From contig CAMJRR010000003.1 in the NCBI GenBank assembly GCA_946408345.1, forward strand, positions 1 to 64,000: DNA of 64,000 nucleotides, read 5' to 3'. A program made the position numbers and the translations under genes. Numbering within the stretch: position 1 is the stretch's first letter; every line of letters starts with the position of its first letter. Below are positions 11,998-42,484 of this stretch, one piece after another. The stretch comes from an uncultured Bacteroidales bacterium. GTDB taxonomy: Bacteria; Bacteroidota; Bacteroidia; Bacteroidales; F082. The notes below the pieces were generated by a model that saw nothing but the letters and a program-made list of their open reading frames with translations, was not told where the DNA came from and searched no databases.

Positions 11998-14325
11998 ATG
12001 GCTACAGAAGAAAAAAACGTTCCCCTTTGGCTGGACATCAAGACGGAATACATTGATGAAAATTTTGAGAAAGTTTTGGAATACCTGAAAAGCGGGAACA
12101 AAAACGACGCTTTCTATCAGACCACAATTGAATTATTAGGCAAGAGGGTTGAAGAGTACCTAAAGACCCTGAAGACTAGACCTGCATATTTTAGCGAGAA
12201 CCCCAGCAATTATGACAAGAACAAACTCATGTTCGAGAGCAGACTTGTAGCTTCATATCTATTAGCAAACAAGAATATAGAAGCACTCATCAGGAAACGG
12301 TTATATATGCCGCTATTGAACTCACTTAGCTTATTAGTTGAACCTGAGCTGTGTGATGAACTCTTAGGTCTGATGCTGGATAACATTCTATATGAAAATG
12401 AACCTGCCCTATTATTCGGATGGGATGACATTATAACATTTGAGCCACAGATTCTGGTCCACAAGATGATCAACGGGACAGTCTTTAGGAATCCGAAACA
12501 AGCAGAATTGGCCTATGAGAATAAAGGAGCGATTACGGTAATAGAAGGCGCAATGGGAATAGCTGCCACAAACAAAGATGGCGTTGAAAAGAAAAAGGCA
12601 CAGTTGGCTTCCTCCATTAGCATACTTGACGGCAGATTGAAGATCCTGGCATCAAAAAGTGACAAGATAAAGCAAGCAGACGAAGGCAATATAGAAGTAA
12701 TAGAAAAGTTCACCCGTAAGTTTATACAGGACCAGTTGAAAGTCAGTCCATCCAAAGCAAAAGGCCCTCGGAAGACATACATGGACGGAGACAACCTTTA
12801 TGTAGCAATCACTTCTGTTACTTGGGAAAAAATCAAAGTGAGAAGCATTGACCCGGAATATGAAGTAATTGAAGGTACAGTGGATTTCTCCGAGCCTGTT
12901 TATCCGAACTATTTCCCTGAAGACTTCTATAAATACCTCAAGGAAGGACAAATAATCGATGTCACTTTGATGGATTACAAGAAAAGCCTATTCTCTTTGA
13001 AGGATGGCTTTATCACATATATCATAGAAGATGTCGTAAAGGAAGGAGAGCATTTTGGCAAATCAGTATTGGGAGAAGTTATCAGGATTTATGAGGACAA
13101 ACGCCATGAGAAGCAAATGGATTGGTGGTCTTCATTAGGCTATACCGTACATACCCAATATGACGACCGATTTGAAAAAGGAGATTTCGGCTACATCAAG
13201 GTTGCAGGCCTTGGAGACAAAGACTATTATGGCTACATCTATGCCGAAATCACAAACAAATCGACACTCAGCTTCGACATCCAAGCCTCCAAAAGAAAGA
13301 TTATAGAGGGCTTCGACTTTATGGGCTACGAGGAGGAAGAGGTCAAGGAGAACATCCTGAACACTCCTGTCATCAGGGACCTCCTGAATATGTTGATCAG
13401 ATACCAAAAGACCATTGTCCAGCCCACCGAGAGATTCAAAGCATTGTGTGTGTCGAACATCTTGGCTACGCTGATTGGGTCGCAAGAACACATGGATTAT
13501 ACCGGATTCATGATGGAATACCTCAAACAACTCATCTACTTTGCAAAGGATGAGTATGACAAGATTGGAGTTATCACAGCTTCCGAAAAACTGAACAGTG
13601 TCGATGTCGTGAAAACCAAATGCGATGTCGTCAGAATCCTTAAAGCATACGGACATGGAGAAAACAATGCAGAACTGGACTCTATTATGGAACAAACCGA
13701 CGACCAGACTCTAACCAAAATCGCAAAGCTCATCCAGTCCTGCAATATCATTGGAGAAATTGTCCCAGCTTCCACAAAGAACATCATCAAGCGTGAGATT
13801 GTCATCAGCCTATCCTTGGAAACGGAGGACGAAACCAACCTTGAAGAAGAAAACGGAATATATCTCGGTATTGAAAACCTGCACCAAGAGTTCAAGACAT
13901 CCTTTGTATATCCCCCTGACAATGATATGCAGCCAAATGTAGCAATTCAAGAGAAGAACATTTTCAAGTGCCTATGCGGTTTCTTAAATTCGGAAGGCGG
14001 CGGCACTCTTTACATCGGAGTGACGGACTTGGGTTATGTATGTGGATTTGACAATGACATGAGGCACCTGAAACTTAGCGAGCTTGATTCATACATCAGA
14101 TTCATACAAGACGAGGCAGCAAAATTCTTCCCTGTCGATGTCCTAAACCAATTCGTCATCAAACCGATGTACGAGAATAAGGTAATGGCAATCAGAGTTG
14201 AACCATACGTAGGTGGCATTGTTGAATTTGAGGGGAAATCGTATATAAGAATCAACAACGAGACCAGAGAAATGAATGACAAGCTGAAGAAAATGGTCAA
14301 GGCAAAGAAAACGCTCAAACAATGA
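11998..14325 (+). CDS. Large protein with C-terminal AlbA_2 (Schlafen-type) domain
   Basis: The 775-residue protein has a C-terminal AlbA_2/COG2865 putative DNA- or RNA-binding domain at ~635-765. Visible motifs are EFKTSFVYPP, then FKCLCGFLNSEGGGTLYIGVTDLGYVCGFD, then FEGKSYIRIN. This is the fold shared with Schlafen proteins, some of which are nucleases or translation inhibitors. The N-terminal ~620 residues are not recognised: a helical part to ~270, then possibly beta-rich OB-like segments (~270-440), then helices. Proteins of this kind often occur in mobile elements and defence islands. It stands alone with a terminator at 14490-14530. Bacterial AlbA_2 proteins are often called transcriptional regulators, but its length and domain order suggest an effector or sensor. 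Confidence is high for the domain and low for the function. Confidence 0.75.
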   Translation: MATEEKNVPLWLDIKTEYIDENFEKVLEYLKSGNKNDAFYQTTIELLGKRVEEYLKTLKTRPAYFSENPSNYDKNKLMFESRLVASYLLANKNIEALIRKRLYMPLLNSLSLLVEPELCDELLGLMLDNILYENEPALLFGWDDIITFEPQILVHKMINGTVFRNPKQAELAYENKGAITVIEGAMGIAATNKDGVEKKKAQLASSISILDGRLKILASKSDKIKQADEGNIEVIEKFTRKFIQDQLKVSPSKAKGPRKTYMDGDNLYVAITSVTWEKIKVRSIDPEYEVIEGTVDFSEPVYPNYFPEDFYKYLKEGQIIDVTLMDYKKSLFSLKDGFITYIIEDVVKEGEHFGKSVLGEVIRIYEDKRHEKQMDWWSSLGYTVHTQYDDRFEKGDFGYIKVAGLGDKDYYGYIYAEITNKSTLSFDIQASKRKIIEGFDFMGYEEEEVKENILNTPVIRDLLNMLIRYQKTIVQPTERFKALCVSNILATLIGSQEHMDYTGFMMEYLKQLIYFAKDEYDKIGVITASEKLNSVDVVKTKCDVVRILKAYGHGENNAELDSIMEQTDDQTLTKIAKLIQSCNIIGEIVPASTKNIIKREIVISLSLETEDETNLEEENGIYLGIENLHQEFKTSFVYPPDNDMQPNVAIQEKNIFKCLCGFLNSEGGGTLYIGVTDLGYVCGFDNDMRHLKLSELDSYIRFIQDEAAKFFPVDVLNQFVIKPMYENKVMAIRVEPYVGGIVEFEGKSYIRINNETREMNDKLKKMVKAKKTLKQ

Positions 14326-15433: not shown

Positions 15434-15601
15434 TCAATCAAACTCCTCCCCACATTTCTGACATTTGTACTTTTTATGGAAGGCACTTTTTACAATATCA
15501 ACGATACTCGGAGCTGGATCAACCAACATGTCAGGCGTTATTTTGCATAGGATTATTTCCTTTGAGCCACAATAAGGGCAAAACTCTTGCTCTTCTTTCA
15601 T
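15434..15601 (-). CDS. Small zinc-ribbon protein, 55 aa
   Basis: This short gene encodes FCPYCGSKE near the N-terminus and YKCQKCGEEFD at the C-terminus: two CxxC pairs ~37 residues apart, a typical zinc-ribbon. Its ATG (15601) lies 2 bp after the stop of the TPR/EF-Tu-domain gene, so it is the last gene of the nine-gene operon and is probably translationally coupled. It may be an adaptor or nucleic-acid-binding partner of the proteins encoded upstream; that is an inference. It is too short to be assigned to a named family. Confidence 0.7.
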   Translation of the reverse strand: MKEEQEFCPYCGSKEIILCKITPDMLVDPAPSIVDIVKSAFHKKYKCQKCGEEFD

Positions 15602-15603
15602 AA

Positions 15604-16806
15604 CTACTTAGACACTTCATGGATTACAGATCCTATCTGTAATTCTTCAATTCCAACACCTTGCAGTAAAATTCCACACGCATCACCAGCTTCTGCTTCG
15701 TCAAGTATTTTATCAAACATGCCAATTCCGAACACAATTGCTTCATGTCTCTTGCCATCATCAACAATTACGACCCTAGCACCTTTTTTAATGATTCCTG
15801 ACCAAACTCGGCCAACAGCCATTGGATTCTGAGGATAATTCTCCAGTTCCCAAACATCCTCAATCTCCATTGAGAAAGGCGAGTTTATTCTTTCAGCATA
15901 ATCTTTTCTTTCTTGTTCTGTGAGGCTCATGCCTCCATCTAGCTTTTCTATACTATCCATTTTCTTGTTTAGTTTTTCCAATTCTGTTTTACACCACGGA
16001 ATTCCAAGAGACGCTCCCTTTTCAATCAGAGTCATGGCAAAATCCATGTCTCCAGCCTCTTCCTGGCATCTTGCATAAATACACCAACACATCCCCCAAT
16101 AGAAATGCTTGCCATGATCATATTCTGACAAGTTCCCGTACAAATCCTTTCCCAAAATAGCGTACCGTTCTGCTTCTTGATAGTTACCCATATCAAATAG
16201 AGCATCCGCTAAGTTCGCATAACCCACTTCTTGGTCAAATTGATTTGCACTGTTTATGAGTTCTTTCGCAAGTCCTTCTTTCAGTTTTAAGTCGTCTTCT
16301 ACTTCCCAATTAAACAAAATTTCAAAAATAGTGTCATAATATGCGTTATTAAACCAATCTCGTAGTGCTTCAGTTTTTATTAACGTCTCTTCCATGCTCT
16401 CAATAGGAGGGCATTCTATTTTTATTGATTGAAGTCTGCGAAAAAGACCAGGAATATCTTGCCTATTATGTTTCAAGAAAAGCAAATCAAATATAAGGGA
16501 CATCGTTTTGAATTCCTCGTCTTCATTCAAAAACCTTCGTGCTGATTGAATTGCTTTCTTTCCTAGTTCAACAGCATATTCCTTATCAGTATCGCTGTTT
16601 TCGTCTATTTCATAATAGTAGAAACGACATAGCACTGTTGCCATATAATAGTAACAAGCCGCACTATTTGTATTGCTATATTCTTGGTTTTTTGCTTTTC
16701 TACAAATTGAATTGTACTCTTTCTCAAAGCTTTGGCGGCTGATGAGGTAGGAATCCACATTGTCAAAGAAACGATTCCAGTCTTCCGAAAAATTGTATTG
16801 ATCCAT
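15604..16806 (-). CDS. TPR-like protein with C-terminal EF-Tu domain-II barrel
   Basis: Residues ~1-300 are helical repeats of TPR/Sel1 type (ACYYYMATVL, EVGYANLADALFDMGN, YWGMCWCIYARCQEE). Residues ~308-397 align closely with domain II of elongation factor Tu: PFSMEIEDV, VGRVWSGIIKKG, FGIGMFDKILDEAEAGD, GILLQGVGIEEL, GSVI. In EF-Tu the same positions read PFLLPIEDV, TGRVERGIIKVG, MFRKLLDEGRAG, LLRGIKREEI. No G-domain is present, so it cannot be a GTPase. In EF-Tu this barrel contacts the aminoacyl-tRNA and the ribosome; here it may bind RNA or act as a decoy or recognition module. It lies 11 bp after the 77-residue gene and 2 bp before the zinc ribbon. The homology is clear, the role unknown. 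Confidence 0.75.
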   Translation of the reverse strand: MDQYNFSEDWNRFFDNVDSYLISRQSFEKEYNSICRKAKNQEYSNTNSAACYYYMATVLCRFYYYEIDENSDTDKEYAVELGKKAIQSARRFLNEDEEFKTMSLIFDLLFLKHNRQDIPGLFRRLQSIKIECPPIESMEETLIKTEALRDWFNNAYYDTIFEILFNWEVEDDLKLKEGLAKELINSANQFDQEVGYANLADALFDMGNYQEAERYAILGKDLYGNLSEYDHGKHFYWGMCWCIYARCQEEAGDMDFAMTLIEKGASLGIPWCKTELEKLNKKMDSIEKLDGGMSLTEQERKDYAERINSPFSMEIEDVWELENYPQNPMAVGRVWSGIIKKGARVVIVDDGKRHEAIVFGIGMFDKILDEAEAGDACGILLQGVGIEELQIGSVIHEVSK

Positions 16807-16817
16807 AATAAATAGTT

Positions 16818-17051
16818 TTACGATTTCTTAATATCAAACAAACCATGTCCTCCTTTGATGTCGTTGTCAGATAAGTAGATGCCATTGACTTCCAGCTGTT
16901 TTTTCAGTATATCGTGACAGCGACTATTGTTGAACAAATTATTTGGGCCGATGCCTGGCATATTAATGTTAATCGCATATTGCTCACCTTTGTCGATGTG
17001 CATTTGTCCACGGTTTATGTCGTGTTTTGCGGTAATGATAAATGTTGGCAT
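16818..17051 (-). CDS. Hypothetical protein, 77 aa
   Basis: I recognise no family with certainty. It begins MPTFIITAKHDINRGQMHID, a beta-rich start seen in small phage-type proteins, and ends KGGHGLFDIKKS. No signal, membrane span or metal-binding motif. The start lies 2 bp after the stop of the 94-residue gene, within the nine-gene operon. Confidence 0.6.
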   Translation of the reverse strand: MPTFIITAKHDINRGQMHIDKGEQYAININMPGIGPNNLFNNSRCHDILKKQLEVNGIYLSDNDIKGGHGLFDIKKS

Positions 17052-17053
17052 AG

Positions 17054-17338
17054 TTATTTAATCCCATCTTTTATGGCTTGCTTTGCTTCTTCTGGCTCAC
17101 GAAGCAACCAATCCAAAGTTAATAATGCTCCAGTTAAAGACAGGCCAAATTCTTGCATGAGACCTTTACAGGTGTAATTTTCAATACACAAATCAGGTTC
17201 AGTCCCATTGGTGATAAATGCCTCAAATGCATTAAGTATTACAGGATTCGTCTTCTGAATCATTTGAGACAATTCTTGAATCTGATCTTTTGGCACTTTT
17301 TGCGTCTCAAGAAACGCTTGTACTTTCATTGTTTCCAT
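17054..17338 (-). CDS. Hypothetical protein, 94 aa
   Basis: I recognise no family. It is a helical, Gln/Leu-rich small protein. Its ATG (17338) is separated by 1 bp from the stop of the metallopeptidase gene, indicating translational coupling; it could be a regulator or inhibitor of that enzyme, which is an inference from position only. The second ATG four codons in is an alternative start. Confidence 0.6.
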   Translation of the reverse strand: METMKVQAFLETQKVPKDQIQELSQMIQKTNPVILNAFEAFITNGTEPDLCIENYTCKGLMQEFGLSLTGALLTLDWLLREPEEAKQAIKDGIK

Positions 17339-17339
17339 T

Positions 17340-18113
17340 TTAGTCTCTTAGATTTTTAAGTTTGTCGACCTGTGAAAAAACATAACTTTCAAACGCGAAT
17401 GCGTCCTTCTCTATGGGTTGGTTTCGGTATGCTTCAAAACCATATATCTGCGCACTCTTATAATGATCCATATTGTATTTCCAAGAGGAAATTACCTCAC
17501 TGGGAACATCTGGATATAAATGCGGATTATTAACTACTTGCTGTTGAAATGCGTGCTCCGATTCATGGGTGATGGTTTTAATAAGGCCTCGAGGATCAGG
17601 ATGTTCCAGATAGTTTTCGTTCAAGGTGATGCTATTTGTTTCAGGATTATATCCCCCTAATGAATCCATAGGACGAAACTCTATTGGAATATCGACAGGC
17701 AAACCTAAACAGTCTTTTATTTCCTCAAAATACTCTTTAGCTAATTGCTCTCTCGTTTCTATGCTTCCTTCCATATAAATTTCAGCTTGCCCTGTTTCGT
17801 AGAATTCATTGGCCGTTGAAATGCATTGCTCTACACATTCAATGTTAGCAAATTGTTCCAACTGTTTCACATCTGATACACATTCATAGTATTCCTGAGG
17901 CATAAGTTCTGTTGGTATTTCCATTTCATCACGACGCAGTTCCATCATGCTTATGGAATCCAACTTTTCTTCGTGGTTCATGTGTAGCCAGTCTTCGGGG
18001 TCTGGAATCACTTCTTGTAGATATTCCAATTGAGCATTCGAAAGACCTTCATTTTGTAATCCTTCAAAAGAATCGGTAGGGGATAACCCTTCGCAATCTT
18101 CTAATCCATACAT
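17340..18113 (-). CDS. Putative HExxH zinc metallopeptidase
   Basis: This 257-residue protein carries HESEH (183-187), the zinc-binding and catalytic HExxH motif, in ITHESEHAFQQQ, much like the HExxH region of DUF4157-like and other gluzincin-type peptidases. The later QPIEKDAFAFE (232-242) offers a Glu as third zinc ligand. The N-terminal ~120 residues are acidic and helical and may gate the active site. There is no signal peptide, so it should act in the cytoplasm. It lies 1 bp downstream of the HerA-type ATPase gene and 1 bp upstream of the 94-residue gene, in the nine-gene operon. The family is not named here; the motif makes a peptidase likely. Confidence 0.6.
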   Translation of the reverse strand: MYGLEDCEGLSPTDSFEGLQNEGLSNAQLEYLQEVIPDPEDWLHMNHEEKLDSISMMELRRDEMEIPTELMPQEYYECVSDVKQLEQFANIECVEQCISTANEFYETGQAEIYMEGSIETREQLAKEYFEEIKDCLGLPVDIPIEFRPMDSLGGYNPETNSITLNENYLEHPDPRGLIKTITHESEHAFQQQVVNNPHLYPDVPSEVISSWKYNMDHYKSAQIYGFEAYRNQPIEKDAFAFESYVFSQVDKLKNLRD

Positions 18114-18114
18114 A

Positions 18115-20880
18115 TTACTTGACTTTATTAACCTTCACCCAGTGCTTATCGGGCGAAAGAGAGGTTGAAACAATGCACTGGCCAACGCCCAACTTTGGTA
18201 TTATCAGACGCTGTTCTTTACTTATACCCATCGATTCTGCAATGGCCTTGCAATCGTCTTCAGCCACCAAACGATGGGTGATTTTTGTGTTCGTGTTCTT
18301 GATGGCATCTGGAATGAGCCTTGTGGGAACTTGGTCAACGAGGAACAGACCTTCTCCATAAGCTCTGATTTCAGAAAGCATATTGCTAAACATCATTGCA
18401 GATTTGTACTGCGGCATTTCCTGGTTGTCGCATTTCATCATCACACGATGGGCTTCCTCAATAATTGTCAGATGACGACATCCGTTATCGTTGAAGTCAA
18501 TTTGTCCTGTCTCTGCCTGCGCAGAACGATATTCATACAAGAACTGAAGAATCAATGCCATAAAGAAGCTCTTATCAACATCGTCACCAACATACGAAAG
18601 ATTGATGACACAAGGTTTACCAAAGAGTTCTTCCCATGGGGTTGACTTGGTTGTATTGAGCATTTCGCCCTTCCATCCACGTTTCAAGCTGTCAATACGA
18701 GTATTGAAACAAGCCTTCATGTTGCGTTCAATCCGCTCCTCATAGCCTCTGTTTTGTATAACCTTATCCACACTGACACTCATGCTGTTAAGGGTTGGTG
18801 CTTTTGTTATCCCCAATTCGGGCATAACGGTCAACCAATCTGTTGACTTGTTCTGATAGATGGTATAGAGCAAATCCTCCATAAGTACAGGTAGTATGTC
18901 GTACATCGGGAAAGCGGCGGCAAACGTGGATTTCAAGCGATCAATATGGCTGAGTACATTTGGATCCTGCTCCTTGCTAAGCCAAATGATCTCGAAAGGA
19001 TTTAGTTTTAGTTCTTTGATATTCTCAGCCGTTTTGCGGGTGTGCTTGTCTTTGTAATTCTTACATCCGGGAATGTAGATTGAGATTGGTTCCTCAGAAT
19101 GCTCCTGGTTGTACTCAATAGCCCAATCAACATATTCCGTTTTAGCTGGTTCTATCACCAGGAAAGGCACCTGCCCAGATAAACTATTAAGTATGGCTTG
19201 AACCGTATTTGTTTTTCCGCTTCCATTGATTCCCGAAAGCAGTGTATGTTTGGCCAAGGAATCGATGGACAACTTGTATTCCATCTTTGTCTCGGAGCCA
19301 CCATACAACAAATTGCCAAATTGGATTGCTGGCTTGTCCGAACCTAATGTCGGTTTGTTTAAACTAAATTCTGGTGAACTATCAACTACACTGATGCCTG
19401 GTACTGATTTTAAAGGGAAATTAATTAGGTACGATAACTCCTTGGTAGTAAGTACACTCTTTAATTCCATAAAGTGTTCCCCCCAAGGATGCAGAAATCT
19501 TCTTCCACCTGCTCCATATATTTCAAGGCGCGGCTCTGTCAACTGCCCGAAAGAGCTTTGCATCAAAGATTTTCCATCCACATTTTGGCTCACAATATCT
19601 GTGATACAGTGAAGTCTAATTGGCTCGTAAGACGATTCTTGACCGCTCATGATCGAACGCAATTGCAATGCGCCACTTTCAGCATCTGACTCATTTTCCG
19701 CGAGGATATAGGTACCAACAGTCCAAAGGCCGATGGCTTTGCCAACTTCAAATCGTTTTGAATGATAATAAAGTTGTTCCGCAATGGCTTCTATGTGTTT
19801 GTTTACAATGTTGCGGCTAATGCTTTGCGACTTGCTTTCGTTAACACCTTCTGTATATGTATCAGACTCAGAAGAAGTATCCGTATTGGTAGTTCCTGTA
19901 GTTTTGGTAGGCATAGCACTACTAATGAATCCTGCGACTAAAGCCCCTCCAGGAATAACGGCACTGGCGGCTCCTGCCAATGCTCCAGCCGCATTTACAC
20001 AACCGTCTAAAACAGCCGAGGCGGCAGGAAACATTTCTGCGGCCATTCCAATACCTGTTGCTGCCAATGCGGTTTTTCCAAGGGCAGTAAAGCTCTTTTT
20101 GGTCACAGACTCACTAATACTTGTGGAATGTGAAGTACTTGAAGTATGCGACATGGATTTGGAGGTGCCTTCGCTTATACCTTCTGTAACATTCATGGAT
20201 TTCAGGGATTCCGCTTGGCCATCCATTTCCCTACACTCGTACAACATGGTTTCAACATCATTTGTCTCAATTGGGTTGGCCACTACCAGATACGCGAAAT
20301 TCTTACTTTTATTCATCCCCGCTATCAAAGTGTCAATAGTGGCAGGATAAACCGTCTTATAAAGCGTCTCCATTGATGGGATTCCTGTTACCGCATACAC
20401 ATTATCAAGTTTGTCGGCACAAATATCTTCCTTCAGAATTGATATGACAGGGTCGTCCTCGTCAACTGTGACAGTTTGAATCCCTGGCCATACCCCTTTT
20501 ATAAACTCATTTAAATGTTTTATGTGGCGCTTAAGGTTTTCATTACCTCTTAATCCCAGATACATATTACATTCCTCTCCATTGCCAGTGATTAAGAAAA
20601 GCAATTGTATCTTTTTAGGAATGAAGCATGAATATAGGATTTTCTGTATTGCCACAAAACAATTTTCTGGACCTTTCTCGACGGGTCGCCCTACCTGCTT
20701 GATGGCAATCCATTTGGCTTTCAATTGGGCTGAATTGGCTATCGGATGGATTTGAAAAGGAGAGGTTTCCGAGTCTATGTTTTCCAAATATTTCCTTTCA
20801 GCACAGAAAGAAAGGGATGCCGACATCGCAGTTGCGACACGAGCTTTTGCTATAGGTTCGTATGGGTTGATGTTAGCCAT
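18115..20880 (-). CDS. HerA/FtsK-type (DUF87) ATPase with central membrane segment
   Basis: The 921-residue protein has Walker A GINGSGKT (~549-556) and Walker B LTIIEEAH (~803-810), the HerA/FtsK/VirB4 pattern (I-E-E-A-H). The later SEIRAYGEGLFLVDQ and ITHRL supply the sensor and arginine-finger regions of this hexameric pump clan. Residues ~232-260 and ~324-355 are Ser/Thr-rich linkers surrounding a Gly/Ala-rich hydrophobic stretch (~265-323) that is probably a membrane hairpin. The N-terminal ~230 residues are unassigned. Such ATPases move DNA or protein across a membrane or act with a nuclease in defence (HerA-NurA, HerA-SIR2). No nuclease partner is adjacent; the neighbours are Hsp70- and peptidase-like. 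Confidence 0.75.
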   Translation of the reverse strand: MANINPYEPIAKARVATAMSASLSFCAERKYLENIDSETSPFQIHPIANSAQLKAKWIAIKQVGRPVEKGPENCFVAIQKILYSCFIPKKIQLLFLITGNGEECNMYLGLRGNENLKRHIKHLNEFIKGVWPGIQTVTVDEDDPVISILKEDICADKLDNVYAVTGIPSMETLYKTVYPATIDTLIAGMNKSKNFAYLVVANPIETNDVETMLYECREMDGQAESLKSMNVTEGISEGTSKSMSHTSSTSHSTSISESVTKKSFTALGKTALAATGIGMAAEMFPAASAVLDGCVNAAGALAGAASAVIPGGALVAGFISSAMPTKTTGTTNTDTSSESDTYTEGVNESKSQSISRNIVNKHIEAIAEQLYYHSKRFEVGKAIGLWTVGTYILAENESDAESGALQLRSIMSGQESSYEPIRLHCITDIVSQNVDGKSLMQSSFGQLTEPRLEIYGAGGRRFLHPWGEHFMELKSVLTTKELSYLINFPLKSVPGISVVDSSPEFSLNKPTLGSDKPAIQFGNLLYGGSETKMEYKLSIDSLAKHTLLSGINGSGKTNTVQAILNSLSGQVPFLVIEPAKTEYVDWAIEYNQEHSEEPISIYIPGCKNYKDKHTRKTAENIKELKLNPFEIIWLSKEQDPNVLSHIDRLKSTFAAAFPMYDILPVLMEDLLYTIYQNKSTDWLTVMPELGITKAPTLNSMSVSVDKVIQNRGYEERIERNMKACFNTRIDSLKRGWKGEMLNTTKSTPWEELFGKPCVINLSYVGDDVDKSFFMALILQFLYEYRSAQAETGQIDFNDNGCRHLTIIEEAHRVMMKCDNQEMPQYKSAMMFSNMLSEIRAYGEGLFLVDQVPTRLIPDAIKNTNTKITHRLVAEDDCKAIAESMGISKEQRLIIPKLGVGQCIVSTSLSPDKHWVKVNKVK

Positions 20881-20892
20881 TGTTGTACTTAT

Positions 20893-22800
20893 TTAGTCCA
20901 CTAAAATACGAGCGTTCTTTAGTTCCTTCTTATAAGCATCTAGCATGGTTCTCAATGCAGATTGAATGTCCTGCTTTATTTTGCGGTTATTTGCCACTGA
21001 GGAAATGATTTCTTCATGCAATTTTTCGCTCATGTGTTCGCCATCCCACTTTTCTGCGAAACCATCCCACACTTTTTGACGAGTGTCATAATCGAGTGGC
21101 TTCGACATAGCCTCTGCTTTCTTTTCTTCTTCCGATTTACCAAAGAGTTTACCCAATCCCCAGCCAATCAGCAGTCCAGGTATACCAAATAGAATTGCAG
21201 CAAGTCCTAATCCTCCAATGCCCAGCCAATTCGTACTATTCTCTACTATTTGGTCTGAGATTTCCTTCACCACAGAATCCATATTGATTGATCCAACATC
21301 CAACGAAGAAATCCTTAACTCCGGAACTTTCACGCTTGTTCCTTGTTTAGCATAAGCTCGAACCATACTATCAACGGCTTGTTTAACACCTTGTGTTTTG
21401 TCGTCAATCTCAGCTTGTAAATATGAAACGGCTTCTGATGATTTACGGCTCACGCTGTTTTGAATGTTTCGTCGTAATTGTGCTTGCAATTGGTTTGCAC
21501 TCCTGTCTTGATTAGATTCACAAAAATCTTTGACTGTATCTATTATCGTGTCGGTAACATCGTCCCATATCATGTGACCATAATTTGCGGCAAAACTTTC
21601 AAAAATTTCATCGCTTTTCTCTAGTTTGGCAATTTCCTGTGCGACCACCTTGTCACCGCCTTCGGTTCTAAGGTCAATTCGAGCAACTTCAGCAACACCT
21701 TGAGAAATGGTCAAAGATGGATCGGTGTCACGATATACTTGCTGCGGCGTTACACCCCAAGATTTGCACACCAAATCGTTTATGAAATCCATTCTGGAAG
21801 CACCGCCAGTCAAAAAAACGCCATAAATAGGTTGCCCATTTATTTTGTTTTGACGAAAGTCTATCATGGCATCCTCTATTTTCTTGAGATAACCTGTTTG
21901 TGTCAATAGTTCATCAAGTTGGCCAGGCTGAAAAGTGAACTTGAAGCGTTCATCTTCCAATTCCTCATCATCAATGATATCTTCAAAATTAATGGTTTTC
22001 TTATAGGGGAGTGTCGGATCGAAATAAACTTTTTCTTTCGCTGCTCTTGCCTGGAAAAGAAGATAATCAACTAGTTTAGGATATTTTGCTTCAAAAGTTT
22101 GAATGGCTTCAACATCCTCACGCTTCTTTCCATAGATGGTTTTTTCCACTAATGACGCACCGCAATCATAACCATAGTCAATTAGGTTTTCATTCGCATC
22201 GTTCATATATGTGAAATCAAGAGTACTAGAACCCATGTCAAATACAATAGCTCCTTTGTGGATATTCTTGCCCAGCCCAGAAGTTACATCCTGTTGGGCT
22301 CGGACAAAGGCTGCTCTCGATTCTTTGGTAACACCAGCAATGGGTATGCCTGCGGCCTCGGCCATTTGCAAATACAATTCTTGTTGATCTTTGTTCCAAC
22401 CAGACGGGGTTGCAATGTAAACCAAATGGTTTCCGTCTTGTAGCAAAGCTTGGTTGTTTTCCCTGATTCTAACATATACCTCGTGCATAAAACGAATCAT
22501 TGTTTTCTCTGCTTCGCCGTTGATGTCTTTGGGGGCTTGCTTGAAACATACTCGAACTGTGGCCTTCTTCAATACTTCAGGATTGAAAGCCGCGTCACCA
22601 ATGTAGGCAGAACTATCTTCCAAAATCGTGATTGCAGAAGGAATGACTTTTCTATTGCCACCCATTTCCAAGTCTTTTACTGGGTCAAGGTTGGCTGAAG
22701 GAGTATCCCATTGTAGAGGACAGATAGCAGCTGAGGTTTCTCCGTGACCGAGGTCTATGCCTATCACATACTCGTATTTTTTCTTGTCTCCGATATTCAT
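20893..22800 (-). CDS. Hsp70-like ATPase with C-terminal membrane segment
   Basis: The actin/Hsp70 ATPase core is intact in residues ~10-380: phosphate-1 IGIDLGHGETS (13-23), phosphate-2 GAIVFDMGSSTLDF (183-196) and adenosine GVFLTGGASRM (327-337). The canonical substrate-binding beta-sandwich does not follow. Residues ~385-520 are helical, then a Gly/Leu-rich hydrophobic segment (~525-554) leads to a charged helical tail. It is thus a membrane-associated Hsp70-like protein rather than a housekeeping DnaK. It lies 12 bp upstream of the HerA-type gene and 6 bp downstream of a gene with a GrpE-like C-terminus, so a dedicated nucleotide-exchange partner is plausible. No J-domain protein is present in the operon. 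Confidence 0.8.
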   Translation of the reverse strand: MNIGDKKKYEYVIGIDLGHGETSAAICPLQWDTPSANLDPVKDLEMGGNRKVIPSAITILEDSSAYIGDAAFNPEVLKKATVRVCFKQAPKDINGEAEKTMIRFMHEVYVRIRENNQALLQDGNHLVYIATPSGWNKDQQELYLQMAEAAGIPIAGVTKESRAAFVRAQQDVTSGLGKNIHKGAIVFDMGSSTLDFTYMNDANENLIDYGYDCGASLVEKTIYGKKREDVEAIQTFEAKYPKLVDYLLFQARAAKEKVYFDPTLPYKKTINFEDIIDDEELEDERFKFTFQPGQLDELLTQTGYLKKIEDAMIDFRQNKINGQPIYGVFLTGGASRMDFINDLVCKSWGVTPQQVYRDTDPSLTISQGVAEVARIDLRTEGGDKVVAQEIAKLEKSDEIFESFAANYGHMIWDDVTDTIIDTVKDFCESNQDRSANQLQAQLRRNIQNSVSRKSSEAVSYLQAEIDDKTQGVKQAVDSMVRAYAKQGTSVKVPELRISSLDVGSINMDSVVKEISDQIVENSTNWLGIGGLGLAAILFGIPGLLIGWGLGKLFGKSEEEKKAEAMSKPLDYDTRQKVWDGFAEKWDGEHMSEKLHEEIISSVANNRKIKQDIQSALRTMLDAYKKELKNARILVD

Positions 22801-22806
22801 GGCTTT

Positions 22807-23781
22807 TTAGTTTTCTGGTGTAAATACTTTTCCTTTTTTAATGATTTGATTTGCCTTTATTATAGCAGGATAAACTTGTTTTGTCTCGGTCGTGTTGGTT
22901 GATGGAACCAAATCAAAAAACACAGCATTGTCGCCATTGTAATCTATGACCTGGATGTTGTAGTTCTCCAACAATTCAGCCAAATCTTCTATTCGTTCTT
23001 GTATTTTTTTATTGAACTTTTCGTCTTCGTTGTGTGCTCTTTTATAGCCAATTAAAGACTGTATTCCTTCAAGTAACACGCCATATTCACGTTCAAGTGA
23101 TGGCTTCTCTTGATTCTCGAATTTCTGAACGACATTGTTGATTTGCGCTCTGAAAGTGACGATGATTTCATCAACATTATGACAAAGGTTCTTTACCACG
23201 CCAAGAAGCATGTCAATGTCGAGCGGTTTTTCAACAATGTGTGCCTCTGTCTTGACATACTTTGTCACAATTTCCTTTTCTACGGATTTGTTATCGGAGT
23301 TTTTGCTCATCAAGTATGTGGTCAATGCGGTACAAGCGATAGCACCGCATACAGCACCCCAAGTCCCAATTAAAGCACCACCTGCTAAAGCACCGACACC
23401 TGCTGCTACGGATGAAGTTGTCAGATTAATGGGTTTCTGTCCAATTTTTTTCTCAAAAGCACTATCTTGCTTAATCTCTTCAGATTCAGTCTCCACTTTC
23501 GGTTCTTCCGAAAAATCCGATTCTATTTCCACTTTTGGAAAACAGGTAAATCTAGCTTGTTGTGCATTAAGGATGGCAATAACTGCCTGAAGAATGTAAT
23601 CTTCCGACTGGGTAAGGTTCTGTCTAAATTCCCCTTCTTCCAAAAGCAGAGAGGAAAGGTGTTCGGAAATGATTAATTGTATCTTATCCGAATCTTTGGG
23701 TACGGTAAGACCCGAGAGAGAATCTCTCAGTTTCTTCTCACTATTCACGAATAGTGTTTCTAATGTGATTCTTTCAGTCAT
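22807..23781 (-). CDS. Membrane protein with GrpE-like C-terminal region
   Basis: The 324-residue protein has a helical N-terminus, a charged linker (~80-115), a Gly/Ala-rich hydrophobic segment (~124-158), and a long coiled-coil helix leading to a C-terminal ~65-residue part. That part (LLENYNIQVIDYNG, then FFDLVP, then IIKKGKVFTPE) follows the layout of the GrpE dimer helix and beta-wing (LxxxGVexid, FDP..H.A, GYxLxGRxxRPA). GrpE exchanges nucleotide on Hsp70, and the Hsp70-like gene starts 6 bp downstream, so a co-chaperone role is a good inference. The GrpE match is distant and should be tested by profile search. Confidence 0.55.
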   Translation of the reverse strand: MTERITLETLFVNSEKKLRDSLSGLTVPKDSDKIQLIISEHLSSLLLEEGEFRQNLTQSEDYILQAVIAILNAQQARFTCFPKVEIESDFSEEPKVETESEEIKQDSAFEKKIGQKPINLTTSSVAAGVGALAGGALIGTWGAVCGAIACTALTTYLMSKNSDNKSVEKEIVTKYVKTEAHIVEKPLDIDMLLGVVKNLCHNVDEIIVTFRAQINNVVQKFENQEKPSLEREYGVLLEGIQSLIGYKRAHNEDEKFNKKIQERIEDLAELLENYNIQVIDYNGDNAVFFDLVPSTNTTETKQVYPAIIKANQIIKKGKVFTPEN

Positions 23782-23804
23782 ATTATTATATGTTTATTAA
23801 ATTG

Positions 23805-24482
23805 TTAGTTTTCAGGATTTTTGATTATCATTTTCCCCTCGATTTCAGCATACACTTCGTTAAAGGGTTGTCCATCTGTGTTATAATAATTGTATGTGCT
23901 TCTCGACAATTGTTTCCAAAGATCTGATAAGCGGTCATTCTTTCTGACATGACCTCCATAGTGATAGAATATAGAAACAACTATCATCGCTTCCCAATCG
24001 TGCTTTTCGGCCTCTGCATACCAATAGTCGAATGAGTATTTCTTGGCGCGAAACTTTTTTGGCGTTGATTCTTGGCATTTCTGGTATTCTGAACGAAAAA
24101 GATTCATCCCTTCTTCATCATTCCATTTGCAATAGATTTCATACATACAGCGGTGATACATTAAAGACAGTTCCCTGTAACTATTGTCGTCTTTAACCTG
24201 ATCAGCCCATTGTTCCGCTTTATCGCCTATTTCATCTACTGCTTTTTCGTCAGGGTATTCTGCCTCCGTCAAATTGCCAAGTTCTGCAAGATAATGATAT
24301 GCCAGGAAGAATTGCTCCATGTCTGACATGGGTGGGATGTTCTTGTATAGAAAAATTTCGTGTGATAGTCCGTCGTGTCCAGCCATATAGCTTACGGAGA
24401 ACTCTTTTCTCATGTCTGGATGTTGTGCCACCTCAACTAATTTGTTGGTCAGTATTTCAATAAGTTGGGATTCTTCAATCAT
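23805..24482 (-). CDS. Hypothetical helical protein, 225 aa (first gene of operon)
   Basis: The protein is helical, with segments resembling TPR/Sel1 repeats (YHYLAELGNLTEAEYPDE, YRELSLMYHRCMYEIY, YWYAEAEKHDWEAMIVVS). I recognise no named family. ATG 24482 is chosen over the upstream TTG (24512), since the usual start codon lies there. It opens the nine-gene operon, after a leader of ~300 bases with an inverted repeat (24557-24648). It is separated by 23 bp from the GrpE-like gene. A recognition or scaffold role would fit a first gene with repeats, but that is speculation. Confidence 0.6.
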   Translation of the reverse strand: MIEESQLIEILTNKLVEVAQHPDMRKEFSVSYMAGHDGLSHEIFLYKNIPPMSDMEQFFLAYHYLAELGNLTEAEYPDEKAVDEIGDKAEQWADQVKDDNSYRELSLMYHRCMYEIYCKWNDEEGMNLFRSEYQKCQESTPKKFRAKKYSFDYWYAEAEKHDWEAMIVVSIFYHYGGHVRKNDRLSDLWKQLSRSTYNYYNTDGQPFNEVYAEIEGKMIIKNPEN

Positions 24483-24556
24483 ATTCAGAAACTCTGTTTC
24501 CGTTGCCCGCAAGTCACGCCAAGACAGGATTATACTTTAATGATATGGCACAAGAA

Positions 24557-24648
24557 AAGCGTGAGACTCGATTCGTCAAGTCCATTGATCAGTAGGTATC
24601 GCCAAACACCTTCACGGAACAGACCGAAGAAACAAATATCCCACGCTT
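24557..24648 (-). promoter_or_regulatory. Inverted repeat in the leader of the nine-gene operon
   Basis: Arms AAGCGTGAGA (24557-24566) and TCCCACGCTT (24639-24648), 9 of 10 paired, enclose a 72-bp GC-rich loop. It lies between the promoter at 24806-24813 and the first gene. It may be a structured leader RNA. Confidence 0.4.
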
Positions 24649-24704
24649 GTTTTCATATCAATTGGGTGGAATATTTCACCTCGTTGATAACAAAAACAAC
24701 AAGT

Positions 24705-24835
24705 GAGCATTAGTCTTCGTCCTCCGTGTAATTTTGGCGATTTCACTGATCAGGACTCAGAATGCCTTCCTTGCGAAACCGGGATTTCTCCCCCAGTTCC
24801 AACTGCAAAAATAGTCATTTTTCAGACTAATGCTC
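24705..24835. promoter_or_regulatory. Promoter flanked by a 12-bp inverted repeat, upstream of the nine-gene operon
   Basis: GAGCATTAGTCT (24705-24716) and AGACTAATGCTC (24824-24835) are a perfect inverted repeat. Between them, on the minus strand, lies TATTTTTG (24806-24813), the Bacteroidetes -7 element, from which transcription would run into the nine-gene operon. The flanking repeats could be operator half-sites for a looping regulator, or the ends of a 131-bp MITE-like insertion. Confidence 0.45.
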
Positions 24836-25301: not shown

Positions 25302-26564
25302 TCAAAACACACAGGTATTGGGATAAAACTCGGTCATCCTGCGGCGGAACTCAGTATCAGCGGAGTTTGCATAACTGCTATCCTTATCCTTCACCCATTC
25401 GGGGCCTTCAAAGAACCTGCGCATCTTCTTATAATCGCCTCGGTCAGAAAGATAGCGTATGACATAGATTAGTTCGTATGATTTGTTGTTCTTTCCGCTC
25501 CAATGGATTGCTGGCAGGTCTCCATCGGGTCTATAATGCCCTGTCAAACGATAAGCCAATAGGTTTTTCACAGATAAAACGTTTTCAATGAAACCCTTCT
25601 CGGCGAGATAGTTGATAAACTCAGTGAAGGCTTCAACGCCCATATTCTCAACCGAAAGTTTCAAATGTAGATGTTCCGTGTCATCGGCTGCGCATTTCGA
25701 TTCAAAGAAGTCATCAGGCAGACTGAAAGAAGCATCGTCAATACTCTCCTTGTACTCTTCCCAAATCTGATTGACAAGATTCACGGCGATTGGATTGTCA
25801 AGGATGGATTCTATGAGTTTTTGCTCCTTCAGCGTAAACAGGTCATAATAATTCCAGTAATAATGCAAATCAGCCGTCAACTGGCTTACCAGATAATCAA
25901 AGAAATCCGAAAAGAATTGCTCGGTGGCTTCGGGGGTGTCCTCTTCTTCGCTCCTTCCAACAAATGATTGCAGCCACGCTCCAGCCTCGCGGCAATTCTC
26001 ATTGTCGTCGTCATCGTACATCGTACCAACAAGATGATCGATGCAAAGTGTGCGCTCTTCATCTGTCATTGTCAAGCCCTCCATCACATCATCCATGCAA
26101 CGGGAACATAAGCGAGCCAAAGGCATGGTGTCGCATTGGGTTTTCTCCAACAGGGAAACAAAGCTGTCCTTGTCATCGCTTTCTATAAAGCCAAACAATC
26201 CCTTTCTTTCAGCCGAACTGATTTGCAAGACAGAAAGGAACTCGCCAACGGTCGGAAGCATCAGTGTCTTTAAGGTGTCGTAGATTTCTTCAGGCTGCAT
26301 AAAGGGCGTTTCGGTATCGTCGTGGATAACCTGCTCTTTGTATTGTGGAAGCACTCGATTGTTATAGATGAAAGCTCTGGCAACATCCAAAGGCCCCAGT
26401 ACCTCTTTCCACAGCCGCAGAATCAATTGGTTATCCTCTTCATCAAGGTTATTGATGTATGCTTCAATTTCTTCTGCAAGCGCTTCCGGAATAGGCTTGG
26501 CTACGGCTCTCTCCAAACCCTCAAAATACAGTTTCTTTCTCCGTATGGCTTCCTTGTTGTTCAT
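25302..26564 (-). CDS. Hypothetical protein, 420 aa, sharing a C-terminal domain with 7549-9054
   Basis: I recognise no family. The protein is acidic and helical; residues ~180-215 include an Asp-rich stretch (MYDDDDNENC). The C-terminal ~110 residues (EKGFIENVLSVKNLLAYRLTG, then AIHWSGKNNKSYELIYVIRYL) align with the end of the 501-residue protein. In both cases the domain is at the extreme C-terminus of a monocistronic minus-strand gene. A terminator (26604-26630) and a small hydrophobic peptide gene lie upstream. No function can be assigned. Confidence 0.6.
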   Translation of the reverse strand: MNNKEAIRRKKLYFEGLERAVAKPIPEALAEEIEAYINNLDEEDNQLILRLWKEVLGPLDVARAFIYNNRVLPQYKEQVIHDDTETPFMQPEEIYDTLKTLMLPTVGEFLSVLQISSAERKGLFGFIESDDKDSFVSLLEKTQCDTMPLARLCSRCMDDVMEGLTMTDEERTLCIDHLVGTMYDDDDNENCREAGAWLQSFVGRSEEEDTPEATEQFFSDFFDYLVSQLTADLHYYWNYYDLFTLKEQKLIESILDNPIAVNLVNQIWEEYKESIDDASFSLPDDFFESKCAADDTEHLHLKLSVENMGVEAFTEFINYLAEKGFIENVLSVKNLLAYRLTGHYRPDGDLPAIHWSGKNNKSYELIYVIRYLSDRGDYKKMRRFFEGPEWVKDKDSSYANSADTEFRRRMTEFYPNTCVF

Positions 26565-33198: not shown

Positions 33199-34131
33199 TC
33201 AGATTGCAATGTTTAAGCTTCCTGACACAAGTGATTCTCTCATGTACTGGTCGAAGTCAATCTCAGGATGCTTTTCCTTAAGTAATGTGAGGTTGATGCT
33301 GCTCCTGGTTGTAGGTAGTTTTCTCGTGAGTCGTATTCCTCCGTCGGTGATCCAGGTCTTCACGTTTCTGGATTCCATTTCAGTGAGGATTTGTGATTTG
33401 ATGCCGCTAAGTTCTTCCTCGACGGCTTCCTTTGTCAGAATCAATTCCCTGATGCGTTGTTCTTGGGAGCTGATTTCTTTTGGCAAATCGTATGGGCTTT
33501 GGAACTGTTCGCCTCTGAGGTCGGTTTCCAAAAGCTCCTTGCAGATTTCAGACGGGATTCGTTTGACTGGGATGAGTTGTGATATATGGTCAAAACTCCC
33601 GTCTTTCTTTTGCTTGTTTCGAATGTGAAGGATGTAGAGTTCCCTTGCCTTCGCTTTCTTGTTCTGAAGTTCGAAAAGGTAAGCGTAAATGGATAGTTGC
33701 CATCTTGCTTTTTCTAACTTCTCTGGTGTCATCTTTCCATAGGTCTTGAGGTCAGCTAGATCAAAAGTATTGTCCGTAATCCTGAACACTTTATCGATAT
33801 TGCTGGCGTAATTTGTGAAATCCGTTACGGTATATTCACTTGCCTCGTGTGTTAGTGAATGTTCTTGGCACAATTGGATGTAGTCTTGCGTCTCAACACT
33901 CCCGTCGTTATACCATCGGGTATCGAAGTCTTCACAACTCTGATGCACTGAGGTTCCATAGGCCGCTGCTTGATCCAGTATGGCCTTGGGGATGTTAGCA
34001 TATTCGTTCGGAAACAGCTGTCTTTGAAGGAGTTCTGTAATTCCCGAAAGATAAGTTCCGTTCAATTCGTAGGTGTGTTGGGTAGGGTCGAATATCACAC
34101 CGCTGTCTGTAAGTTCAATTCGCTTTGCCAT
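33199..34131 (-). CDS. PD-(D/E)XK exonuclease, RecB/Cas4-like
   Basis: The 310-residue protein has YGTSVHQ (58-64, the conserved G-x3-H), FDLADLKTYG (123-132, the D-x-K catalytic strand) and RWQLSIYAYL (143-152, QxxxYAY motif IV), the pattern of phage RecB-family exonucleases. These resect double-stranded ends to expose strands for annealing. It is coupled to an annealase gene (gap 3 bp). A C-terminal ~100 residues includes a coiled-coil segment (EEISSQEQRIREL) that may contact the partner. Its role is phage-type homologous recombination of the island. Confidence 0.8.
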   Translation of the reverse strand: MAKRIELTDSGVIFDPTQHTYELNGTYLSGITELLQRQLFPNEYANIPKAILDQAAAYGTSVHQSCEDFDTRWYNDGSVETQDYIQLCQEHSLTHEASEYTVTDFTNYASNIDKVFRITDNTFDLADLKTYGKMTPEKLEKARWQLSIYAYLFELQNKKAKARELYILHIRNKQKKDGSFDHISQLIPVKRIPSEICKELLETDLRGEQFQSPYDLPKEISSQEQRIRELILTKEAVEEELSGIKSQILTEMESRNVKTWITDGGIRLTRKLPTTRSSINLTLLKEKHPEIDFDQYMRESLVSGSLNIAI

Positions 34132-34134
34132 GGT

Positions 34135-34866
34135 TTAAGCTGCTTTTTTGGTTTGCAATTGCTCTCGACGTTGAGTGAAGAGAGCCTTGATTTCGGGATT
34201 GCCCTCCACTTCGTTCTTGTGTTGGTTGTAGAGGTTAAGAAGGCTGTTGATGTCCTTCATGGATTCCAGAGCCGCCTTGATTCCTGCATACTTGTCGATA
34301 GGAGTGGTAGCGGTTCTTCTTGTGTAGGTTCGTTTTTGTTTGGCGGGTTCAGGTTTCATAGCCTCAGCCGTGGTTTCAGTCGTTTCTTCCGGCAAATCTT
34401 CTCCGGCATAGATGTAGAGTCCCAAGCCGAACATAGCAAGGTTTTTCACTAAGCATCGCATAATGGTTTTGTTGATGTCAAACATGGTCGCTGCATCAAC
34501 TTTCTTTTCAATGTAGGTGTTCTTGTACTTATCCCATACTTGATAAGTGTATGGTTCAAGTCTCATCGCTTTGTTAGCTCCATCCATAACGGGTAGCCAC
34601 ATTTCGTAAGTCAAGCCGTCCACTGTCACTTCAGTATAGACGATGATTCCCAATCTTTCATCCACGAAATAGGGCAAGTTGGTGTTGGCATCCTTCACGA
34701 TCTTATAGGTCGCCGAAGGATATTGCTTCTTGAATTCAGCCCAAGCCACAGCCCAGGTCAGATAGGTCAGGCCGTTCTTCTTCTCGGTACGGTCATTCAC
34801 GTTCAGAGCGTAAAGGTTATTGAAGCCTTCTCTGAGAATTTCTTCTTGATTTTTGTTGTTTTCCAT
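34135..34866 (-). CDS. Single-strand annealing protein, DUF1071/Sak family
   Basis: Residues ~15-155 match the DUF1071 (Sak) annealase family: NVNDRTEKKNGLTYLTWAVA, then IVYTEVTVDGLTYEMWLPVMDGANKAM, then FDINKTIMRCLVKNLAMFGLGLYIYAGEDLP. The C-terminal part is a Lys/Arg-rich linker and helices. These proteins anneal complementary single strands after resection by a partner exonuclease, here the gene next to it. The length is typical. A terminator lies in the 145-bp gap upstream, between it and the DUF3871 gene. Confidence 0.9.
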   Translation of the reverse strand: MENNKNQEEILREGFNNLYALNVNDRTEKKNGLTYLTWAVAWAEFKKQYPSATYKIVKDANTNLPYFVDERLGIIVYTEVTVDGLTYEMWLPVMDGANKAMRLEPYTYQVWDKYKNTYIEKKVDAATMFDINKTIMRCLVKNLAMFGLGLYIYAGEDLPEETTETTAEAMKPEPAKQKRTYTRRTATTPIDKYAGIKAALESMKDINSLLNLYNQHKNEVEGNPEIKALFTQRREQLQTKKAA

Positions 34867-41134: not shown

Positions 41135-42484
41135 TCAGGCTGACTTCAGTAGTTCCAACACCTTAATTAATGTAGCTTCATCAACTCCTTCGAGCTTTTT
41201 AGCAATATCATTCTTGATGTCATTTTGCTTCTCGACCTGGTCCCATTTCGCCAATTCCCTCCTTTGAGTTTCATCTGCCACCTCGATATATGGCTTCATT
41301 GCACTGTATGTGGAATGGCCTGTGCAACTCATCACAACAGTCGGTGGAATCCCAAAAGCGAGAGAGCAACATACAAATGTTCTTCTTGCATCATGACAAC
41401 CGATAATCTCATGGAATTTCTTTACTTCCTCTTTTCTAGTGTTTCCTTGATAGTGGATTAATACGACCTCTCGGTCAAGACCGGCCTTCTTTGCAGCTTC
41501 CTTTAGATACTCATTGATTTTAGCGTTGGCATACACCCGAAACATTTTTCCATCGGGGTAATCCCCTTCATGATATTTATCAATGATTTCCTTGGCGTGG
41601 ATAGTTAACGGAATTGAAAGCTTATCTTGAGTTTTCTTGGTGCAAATCTCAATATGGTCTTCAAACACGTTTGCCTTCTTCAAATTTTCCAAATCACTAT
41701 ATCTTAAAGAGGTGAAAGCCATGAAACAGAACAAGTCCCTGACCAACTCCAAGCATTTCTCATTATCGGCGAATTTAAAATTGTAGAAATCCATTAGTTC
41801 TCTGTGCTTCAAGAAAGTTACGGTTTTCGGCACAATGGTTAGATTAAGTTTATAATCCAAAACTCCTGGCTGCAACTCATATCCTTCGTTATAAAGCCAC
41901 CTAATAAAGGTTTTCAGAAATGAAAACATTTTATCGATAGTGGTATTGCTATAGTCTTTGGCAACATACCAGTTCTTCAACTCACGCATCTTATCCTTGG
42001 TGAGCTTTTCCAGAGTAATTCCAGGGCAACATGCATTAAGATGTTTCCATGTCTGCTCATATTTGTGATGGACTTTTTCTGTCCAATTGTTATCATCACT
42101 TGCCGTTTTCAGAAACTCTTCAAATAATTCGGCAAACGTTTTCTTCAATTTCACCTCTTCCTTTGGCTGTTCCCCACGCACCATTGTTTTCAAGATTTCC
42201 TTCGACGGCATTACAGAATCAATCTCACATTTCTTGAAGGCCTTCTTGATCTGTTCCAAGCCTTCATCAATAGCGTTGGTAATAATTCGAGCACTACAAT
42301 TTTGGTCTGCGAATTTGTGGATTGTACCTGTAGTTGGCCTTTGAGCTTTGCTATCCCATTTATCAGGATCAGCACGATACTCTAATGAAAAAGTGGTTTC
42401 CGTCTTGTTCCAGCGCACACGGATTTTAATGTGCTTGGTTTTGGGGTCAATGAAGACCCTCGTGTTGTACTTAATTTCTATCAT
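41135..42484 (-). CDS. Tyrosine recombinase (island integrase)
   Basis: The 449-residue protein has the tyrosine recombinase catalytic set: R261 in TSLRYSDL, H364-x-x-R367 in CHDARRTF, H390 in CTGHS and Y399 in MKPYIEV. Residues ~110-200 are the SAM-like DNA-binding core-binding domain and the N-terminus (~1-85) an Arm-type region with RVFIDPKTKHIKIRV, common in Bacteroidetes integrases. It lies 218 bp from attR, reading inward, and is the likely enzyme for the ssrA attachment site. No excisionase-like gene is directly adjacent to it, but the DUF3853 gene at 299-622 lies at the other end. Confidence 0.9.
   Translation of the reverse strand: MIEIKYNTRVFIDPKTKHIKIRVRWNKTETTFSLEYRADPDKWDSKAQRPTTGTIHKFADQNCSARIITNAIDEGLEQIKKAFKKCEIDSVMPSKEILKTMVRGEQPKEEVKLKKTFAELFEEFLKTASDDNNWTEKVHHKYEQTWKHLNACCPGITLEKLTKDKMRELKNWYVAKDYSNTTIDKMFSFLKTFIRWLYNEGYELQPGVLDYKLNLTIVPKTVTFLKHRELMDFYNFKFADNEKCLELVRDLFCFMAFTSLRYSDLENLKKANVFEDHIEICTKKTQDKLSIPLTIHAKEIIDKYHEGDYPDGKMFRVYANAKINEYLKEAAKKAGLDREVVLIHYQGNTRKEEVKKFHEIIGCHDARRTFVCCSLAFGIPPTVVMSCTGHSTYSAMKPYIEVADETQRRELAKWDQVEKQNDIKNDIAKKLEGVDEATLIKVLELLKSA

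Follow-up and report, generated by a model that had tools for sequence, protein, structure and literature searches.

A rare Bacteroidales operon joining HerA-type, Hsp70-like and GrpE-like proteins to a peptidase gene pair: a candidate toxin-deployment system

Results

The operon and its nine proteins

The 64,000-nucleotide stretch analysed here at full length (the window; contig CAMJRR010000003.1 of assembly GCA_946408345.1, from an uncultured, gut-type Bacteroidales bacterium of the family F082) carries a nine-gene minus-strand operon, 24482 down to 15434, whose genes we call A to I (Table 1). The first-pass annotation had listed Hsp70-like, GrpE-like, HerA-type, peptidase, TPR-EF-Tu and zinc-ribbon parts in one operon, and this observation was confirmed. 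The parts are unequal: because related loci (labelled below with our own L numbers, genomes with G numbers) keep B to F and seldom A, H or I, the core consists of B, C, D, E and F, and A, H and I are mostly lineage-specific.

Table 1. Coordinates of the operon genes, their motifs and other features of the window
Feature	Description	Position	Strand	Basis
A	225 amino acids (aa), Sel1/TPR-like (by eye), accessory	23805..24482	-	Open reading frame (ORF), ATG at 24482
B	324 aa, membrane segment 131-154 and C-terminal GrpE-like domain	22807..23781	-	Hydrophobicity, fold comparison
GrpE-like domain of B	Residues 182-324	22810..23238	-	
C	635 aa, Hsp70-like ATPase	20893..22800	-	Profile against PDB Hsp70
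Segment of C	Gly-rich, hydrophobic, residues 525-553	21142..21228	-	Hydrophobicity
D	921 aa, HerA-family pump ATPase, Ser-rich linker, hydrophobic segment 297-319	18115..20880	-	
Walker A of D	GINGSGKT	19210..19233	-	Residues invariant in 14 rows
E	257 aa, HExxH metallopeptidase, proposed effector	17340..18113	-	
Zinc motif of E	HESEH	17553..17567	-	Alignment of 8 rows
F	94 aa, likely immunity protein to E	17054..17338	-	Co-occurrence, homologues after E-type peptidases
G	77 aa, small accessory protein	16818..17051	-	Homologues in related loci
H	400 aa, TPR-like and EF-Tu domain 2	15604..16806	-	Domain search
I	Small zinc-ribbon-like protein	15434..15601	-	ORF, domain search
Tyrosine integrase	Phage_int_SAM_5 and Phage_integrase	41135..42484	-	Both above cut-off; phrog_1 integrase
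Element-type genes besides the integrase	Sak, RecE-like, D12 methylase, BT4734-like/primase-like	33199-34866, 5112-5936, 1216-2103		
AbiH fusion	AbiH abortive-infection domain fused to FGE-sulfatase (formylglycine-enzyme-like) domain	36604-38454		Apparent cargo of the same element

D has a P-loop core of the HerA/FtsK superfamily: DUF87 scores above the Pfam cut-off, HerA in the PDB is matched at E 8.6e-17, and G550, G553, G555 and K556 of the Walker A motif are invariant, together with EEAH, in a 14-row alignment. In C, a family profile matches the nucleotide-binding domains of Hsp70 proteins in the PDB (E 8.7e-5, profile positions 107–348), and the stretches DMGSSTLDF and LTGGASRM are conserved; the Pfam HSP70 profile did not detect C, and a substrate-binding beta domain was unmatched in it by Pfam and PDB profile searches. 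The predicted model of B has a GrpE fold (long helix, helical bundle and beta wing), and B is presumed to serve as nucleotide-exchange factor for C. Among the nine proteins, only B, C and D contain a hydrophobic segment that reaches a mean Kyte–Doolittle value of 1.6 over 19 residues, so that the assembly is predicted to be energised and probably membrane-associated, in keeping with the energised membrane machine that the first-pass annotation had proposed.

In the proposed effector E, residues H183, E184, H187, E235 and D237 are invariant across 8 rows. For A, family searches gave no match, and among the nine related loci L012 alone had a match, partial and 45 residues long; a second in-frame start candidate of A is the TTG at 24512. 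PADLOC gave single-protein matches for D (in part, to several HerA models, mad8 and other defence ATPase models), for C (LeoBC and LeoB, in part, over residues 387–627, E 1.6e-7 and 9.4e-5), for B (PDC-M09A and, weakly, RTasSLATT) and, weakly, for I (PDC-M14A); A, E, F, G and H had no PADLOC match at E 0.1.

Recurrence of the core

Six short patterns from the D peptide sequence were scanned against a genome collection organised at species level (84,980 species). This procedure, which reaches close relatives only, gave nine related loci, all from Bacteroidota; one of them, L010, comes from the culturable commensal Bacteroides gallinarum DSM 18171. C and D are found in all nine and B, E and F in eight each; the degenerate L009 lacks B and has C truncated behind a transposase-like ORF. 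Homologues of G stand in three (L004, L005 and L008), with a further one recovered by ORF search (L010) and similar small ORFs seen by eye in L007 and L011. H is matched completely in L005, over residues 1–299 in L004 and by its EF-Tu-like part alone in L007 and, by ORF search, in L011; I is matched only in L005. The expectation that the same nine genes would recur elsewhere therefore holds for B to F as a unit and fails for A, H and I, which rarely accompany them.

The core is rare and sporadic. D occurs in 9 of 173 genomes of the family (E <= 1e-30), four of which also carry B and C beside it, and in 6 of 393 genomes drawn from the order; in genome G776 the operon is interrupted by contig ends. 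Among 296 genomes of the phylum, C was found in one, its own.

Two partner types of D

We opened 33 non-duplicate D loci, namely the window, the nine scan loci, nine further Bacteroidales loci and 14 of 43 matching plasmid records. On a tree of the 33 D proteins the 14 Hsp70-partnered and the 6 dynamin-partnered rows each occupy one side of a branch (100/100); the other 13 rows have no assigned partner, and long branches were flagged by the program. Partner type thus appears, in these sequences, as a single split on the D tree. The Hsp70-partnered rows come from Bacteroidota and two cyanobacterial plasmids, and the dynamin-partnered ones from Lactococcus, Treponema, E. coli and Bacteroidales. 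Hsp70 partners were called from C homologues, with Pfam HSP70 above its cut-off in L014, L015 and L041; that of L042 reaches 15.7 of the required 20.6 with Pfam HSP70 and matches the profile of the N-terminal part of C at 3e-9. Dynamin partners were called from Pfam Dynamin_N (L035, L039 and L040) or from annotation (L018, L019 and L046). In Anabaena the Hsp70 is fused to a GTPase; in the cyanobacterial plasmid loci L014 and L015 an Hsp70–TPR or Hsp70–GTPase fusion lies upstream of the D relative, and a HEIGH peptidase stands three genes past it.

The slot downstream of D

Within the slot, defined as the three genes downstream of D on the same strand, 22 of the 33 D loci have an HExxH peptidase or a toxin-type nuclease, including all 14 loci of the Hsp70 clade and 8 of 9 of the dynamin clade. 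A peptidase alone is present in 14 loci (the window, L004–L008, L010–L012, L014, L015, L039, L041 and L042; the motif was read by eye in L039, L041 and L042). A nuclease is present in the remaining eight: colicin-DNase/WHH in L009, L018, L040, L044, L046 and, marginally, L035 (the protein scores 24.0 bits, under the cut-off of 25, and the genome search gives 26.7), AHH in L034 and LHH in L019. Behind the nuclease, six of these eight loci have either a SUKH/SMI1 gene (L040 by Pfam; L019, L044 and L046 by PLSDB names) or a DUF6985 gene (L018 and L035). SUKH proteins have an immunity role in toxin/immunity pairs.

Two loci bear on how the slot is filled. In L009 the nuclease lies between E-like segments, next to an E-like N-terminal domain, an insertion that we take as evidence of recombination. 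In L040 a single fused protein has an HExxH domain N-terminal to colicin-DNase/WHH; the L040 peptidase was unmatched to E of the window by blastp at 0.01, and hence would belong to another or a distant HExxH family. The toxins of L040 and Treponema are 46% identical over 206 residues and their D proteins 37%, and since toxin identity exceeds D identity an exchange of toxins is suggested. To control for position, 12 of the D-bearing genomes, of which 13 were found, were searched (about 34.6 Mb; G776 was left out). Two colicin-DNase domains and one AHH domain were detected in total, all within 1.4 kb downstream of the matched end of D; this control informs position and not the choice of families, both having been picked after they were sighted in the slot. 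As a separate observation, downstream of the D relatives of L036 and L043 come acidic proteins in which a GGHQNMTAEEVEQYQ motif recurs, and an SPFH-like protein (by eye).

The E/F pair outside the operon

Sequence divergence is faster in E than in B, C and D (25–28% identity where D keeps 62–69%), and F stands beside it in eight of the nine related loci, a position that fits an immunity gene next to a toxin. In genome G784, of the same genus and with no D match, an E-type peptidase (35% identity to E of the window over 102 residues) is fused to DUF4280 (104.8 bits), which is PAAR-like in the type VI secretion system (T6SS) according to the available part of PMC5349215. The peptidase is the sole other domain recognized in this protein (locus L059), which stands behind T6SS TssD/Hcp and VgrG domains and is followed by an F homologue. 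Homologues of F after E-type peptidases were found in L059 (E 1.2e-10), L060 (7.4e-8) and L042 (9.2e-6), the next background ORF scoring 0.066. Because the pair rides a T6SS locus in a genome with no D match, we regard E/F as an effector/immunity module, and not as the proteolytic chamber of the machine; we hold this to be very likely, neutralization of E by F being the predicted relation. L060 itself (G771:C56:29000-47500) appears to be a distinct putative conflict operon, with DUF4407, an AAA+ ATPase, a canonical Hsp70, the E-type peptidase and the F homologue.

A probable mobile-element setting

The operon DNA has a lower GC content than the window's right end. Besides the integrase, the window encodes further element-type genes (Sak-type annealing protein, RecE-like nuclease, D12 methylase, BT4734-like/primase-like gene; Table 1), and what appear by eye to be housekeeping genes start near 43 kb. 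On these grounds the left-hand two thirds of the window are probably an integrated mobile element that carries the operon. A 420-aa protein at 25302–26564, unmatched in Pfam and PHROGs, has a homologue that also precedes the operon in L004 and in L037 (on the contig of L005), which suggests a shared insertion context. On the strand opposite to the operon, 11998–14325 encodes a protein of 775 aa with a C-terminal Schlafen AlbA_2 domain (45.3 bits).

Discussion

The analyses presented here join a constant set of putative delivery genes to exchangeable toxin cassettes, as the 22 filled slots and the nuclease insertion of L009 illustrate, and on balance we think it probable that the operon is a toxin-deployment system of the polymorphic-toxin kind, with a nucleotide-driven membrane machine. 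It is likely, in our judgement, that B, C and D form a dedicated control or delivery machine for E/F; that E is delivered to other bacteria we consider only marginally probable. In the mechanism that we suggest, the HerA-type pump D, together with membrane-tethered C and with B, would form an ATP-driven inner-membrane machine in which the nucleotide on C would be exchanged by B. The zincin protease toxin E would be the cargo, recognized via an N-terminal leader and pumped by D towards a neighbouring bacterium as its target, and the producer would be shielded by F, through binding and neutralization of E; A, G, H and I may be accessory or adaptor proteins. Relatives retain D, with a dynamin pair in the place of Hsp70/GrpE and nuclease toxins with SUKH or DUF6985 genes in that of E/F. 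Hsp70 and GrpE act at the inner membrane in mitochondrial import, which offers an analogy for B and C. What the sequences document is the HerA and Hsp70 homology, the GrpE-like fold, the recurrence, the swapping of effectors and the E/F pair on a T6SS locus; the action of B on C, the movement of E by D, delivery to other bacteria and the binding of F to E are inferred.

Several observations weigh against this interpretation. No toxin was recognized in the slot of 11 of the 33 D loci (L016, L017, L024, L036, L043, L045 and L047–L051), seven of which the D tree places in its outer group; L024 has a NERD match under the cut-off and ends at a contig edge. Other toxin pairs do not repeat the pattern of L040 and Treponema (L044/L046, toxin 51% and D 47%; L018/L035, 31% and 39%; L018/L046, 23% and 45%). 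The apparent lack of an Hsp70 substrate domain in C seems to weaken the case for cargo handling by C, and the similarity of B to GrpE is moderate (root-mean-square deviation 6.7, model pLDDT 67, Foldseek without a row at E 0.001). Nothing in the operon was recognized as an outer-membrane or injection part, and E has no signal peptide (by eye). The E/F pair of L060 follows a canonical Hsp70 and an AAA+ ATPase, with no D match, so that the pair is not exclusive to D; and an AbiH gene shares the element with the operon.

The last of these points bears on the main rival explanation, in which B, C and D would act as sensors of phage or plasmid invasion or of a damaged envelope, and E would be released or activated by them within the same cell, with F as antitoxin (abortive infection). 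Besides the AbiH–FGE gene, the partial PADLOC matches of D to HerA models, mad8 and other defence ATPases agree with it, as do the predicted Hsp70/GrpE and GTPase conflict systems in the available passages of PMC7159879 and the lack of a recognized dedicated secretion channel in the operon. However, E/F homologues ride a T6SS spike, that is, they are built for delivery, the combinations of nuclease and SUKH genes found in this slot look like polymorphic toxin/immunity pairs (PMC3482391, in the part available), and five of the nine proteins are unmatched in PADLOC at E 0.1. We therefore consider an intracellular conflict system rather unlikely; the anti-phage role raised by the first-pass annotation keeps some footing in the AbiH gene but is not favoured.

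Quite improbable, to our mind, is that E serves the machine as a peptidase for processing or release and that the true toxin of the window locus was lost or escaped recognition. The order of domains in the L040 fusion, and the nuclease that adjoins an E-like N-terminal domain in L009, speak for such a role; but the L040 peptidase is of another or a distant family, E keeps company with F in nearly all related loci, and nothing besides the peptidase is recognized next to DUF4280 in the T6SS fusion. A chaperone or quality-control unit, in which Hsp70, GrpE and HerA would unfold envelope proteins and pass them to E, would account for the Hsp70/GrpE pairing and for a protease adjoining an ATPase. 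It is hard to square with the much faster divergence of E than of D, with the nucleases in the slot of relatives and with the sporadic presence of D in the family, and we give it very little credence; the first-pass idea of protein unfolding coupled to a protease is likewise not supported, E/F looking swappable and recurring on a T6SS spike without D.

A HerA pump combined with Hsp70/GrpE or dynamins and with toxins was not described among the matches listed by open-access full-text searches (subscription papers and preprints lay outside their scope), and the first-pass view of the system as undescribed agrees with these searches, whose listed papers gave no match by title, start of abstract or passages. 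The nearest accounts, as far as their available parts go, are the polymorphic-toxin survey PMC3482391, PMC7159879, PMC4159319 and PMC4978471. In polymorphic toxins with FtsK/HerA motors (type VII secretion), a superfamily ATPase likewise adjoins toxins with nuclease warheads (PMC3482391, in the passages available). D, however, has a single HerA-type (DUF87) stretch with a Ser-rich linker and is partnered by Hsp70/GrpE or dynamins, instead of the WXG100 partner and multi-domain EssC/EccC-type ATPase of type VII systems; no WXG100 match was found among the nine proteins at E 1. The E. coli dynamins LeoABC, which have been linked to vesicle-borne toxin release, recall the two dynamin-annotated genes that D relatives of the dynamin type follow, and LeoBC/LeoB partly match C; but the C-terminal half of C was unmatched to the dynamins fetched (best full-sequence E 0.23), and the terms ‘ATPase’, ‘nuclease’ and ‘FtsK’ are absent from the available text of PMC4159319. 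The GTPase/Hsp70/GrpE conflict systems include predicted Hsp70 and GrpE operons, with a subset whose Hsp70 has no peptide-binding domain, but they are centred on GAP1-N2 GTPases, mainly of actinobacteria and firmicutes, and a HerA pump goes unmentioned in the passages of PMC7159879 available. T6SS effectors tipped with DUF4280 share the cargo pair of an E-type peptidase and an F-type gene; Hcp, VgrG and PAAR-type domains are absent from the nine proteins, and a T6SS location is seen only for the E/F homologues of L059. HerA-type defence and repair ATPases share the ATPase domain of D, but no NurA or SIR2-type partner was recognized among the nine proteins, and D falls far under the NCBIfam cut-offs (CedD, 71.9 of 600 bits; HerA_antiphage, 24.6 of 800).

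Finally, we tentatively suggest, as a possibility more than an expectation, that B-C-D and the dynamin pair with D may be two branches of one undescribed class of protein-export machine, driven at a membrane by HerA and switched by Hsp70 or by dynamin, which would deliver exchangeable protease and nuclease toxins and would have been carried by plasmids and integrated elements into Bacteroidota, Cyanobacteriota, Bacillota, Spirochaetota and Pseudomonadota. Our analysis names a candidate protease/immunity pair common to this operon and the T6SS. If the proposal is correct, bacteria would have, in a HerA pump switched by Hsp70/GrpE or dynamins, one more route of protein-toxin deployment, and the functionless ‘DUF87/ATP-binding’ and ‘dynamin’ annotations on plasmids of several phyla would gain a role. 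Hsp70 and dynamin would then hold an equivalent place in related machines, and may offer a testable view of the part that such switches play at bacterial membranes.

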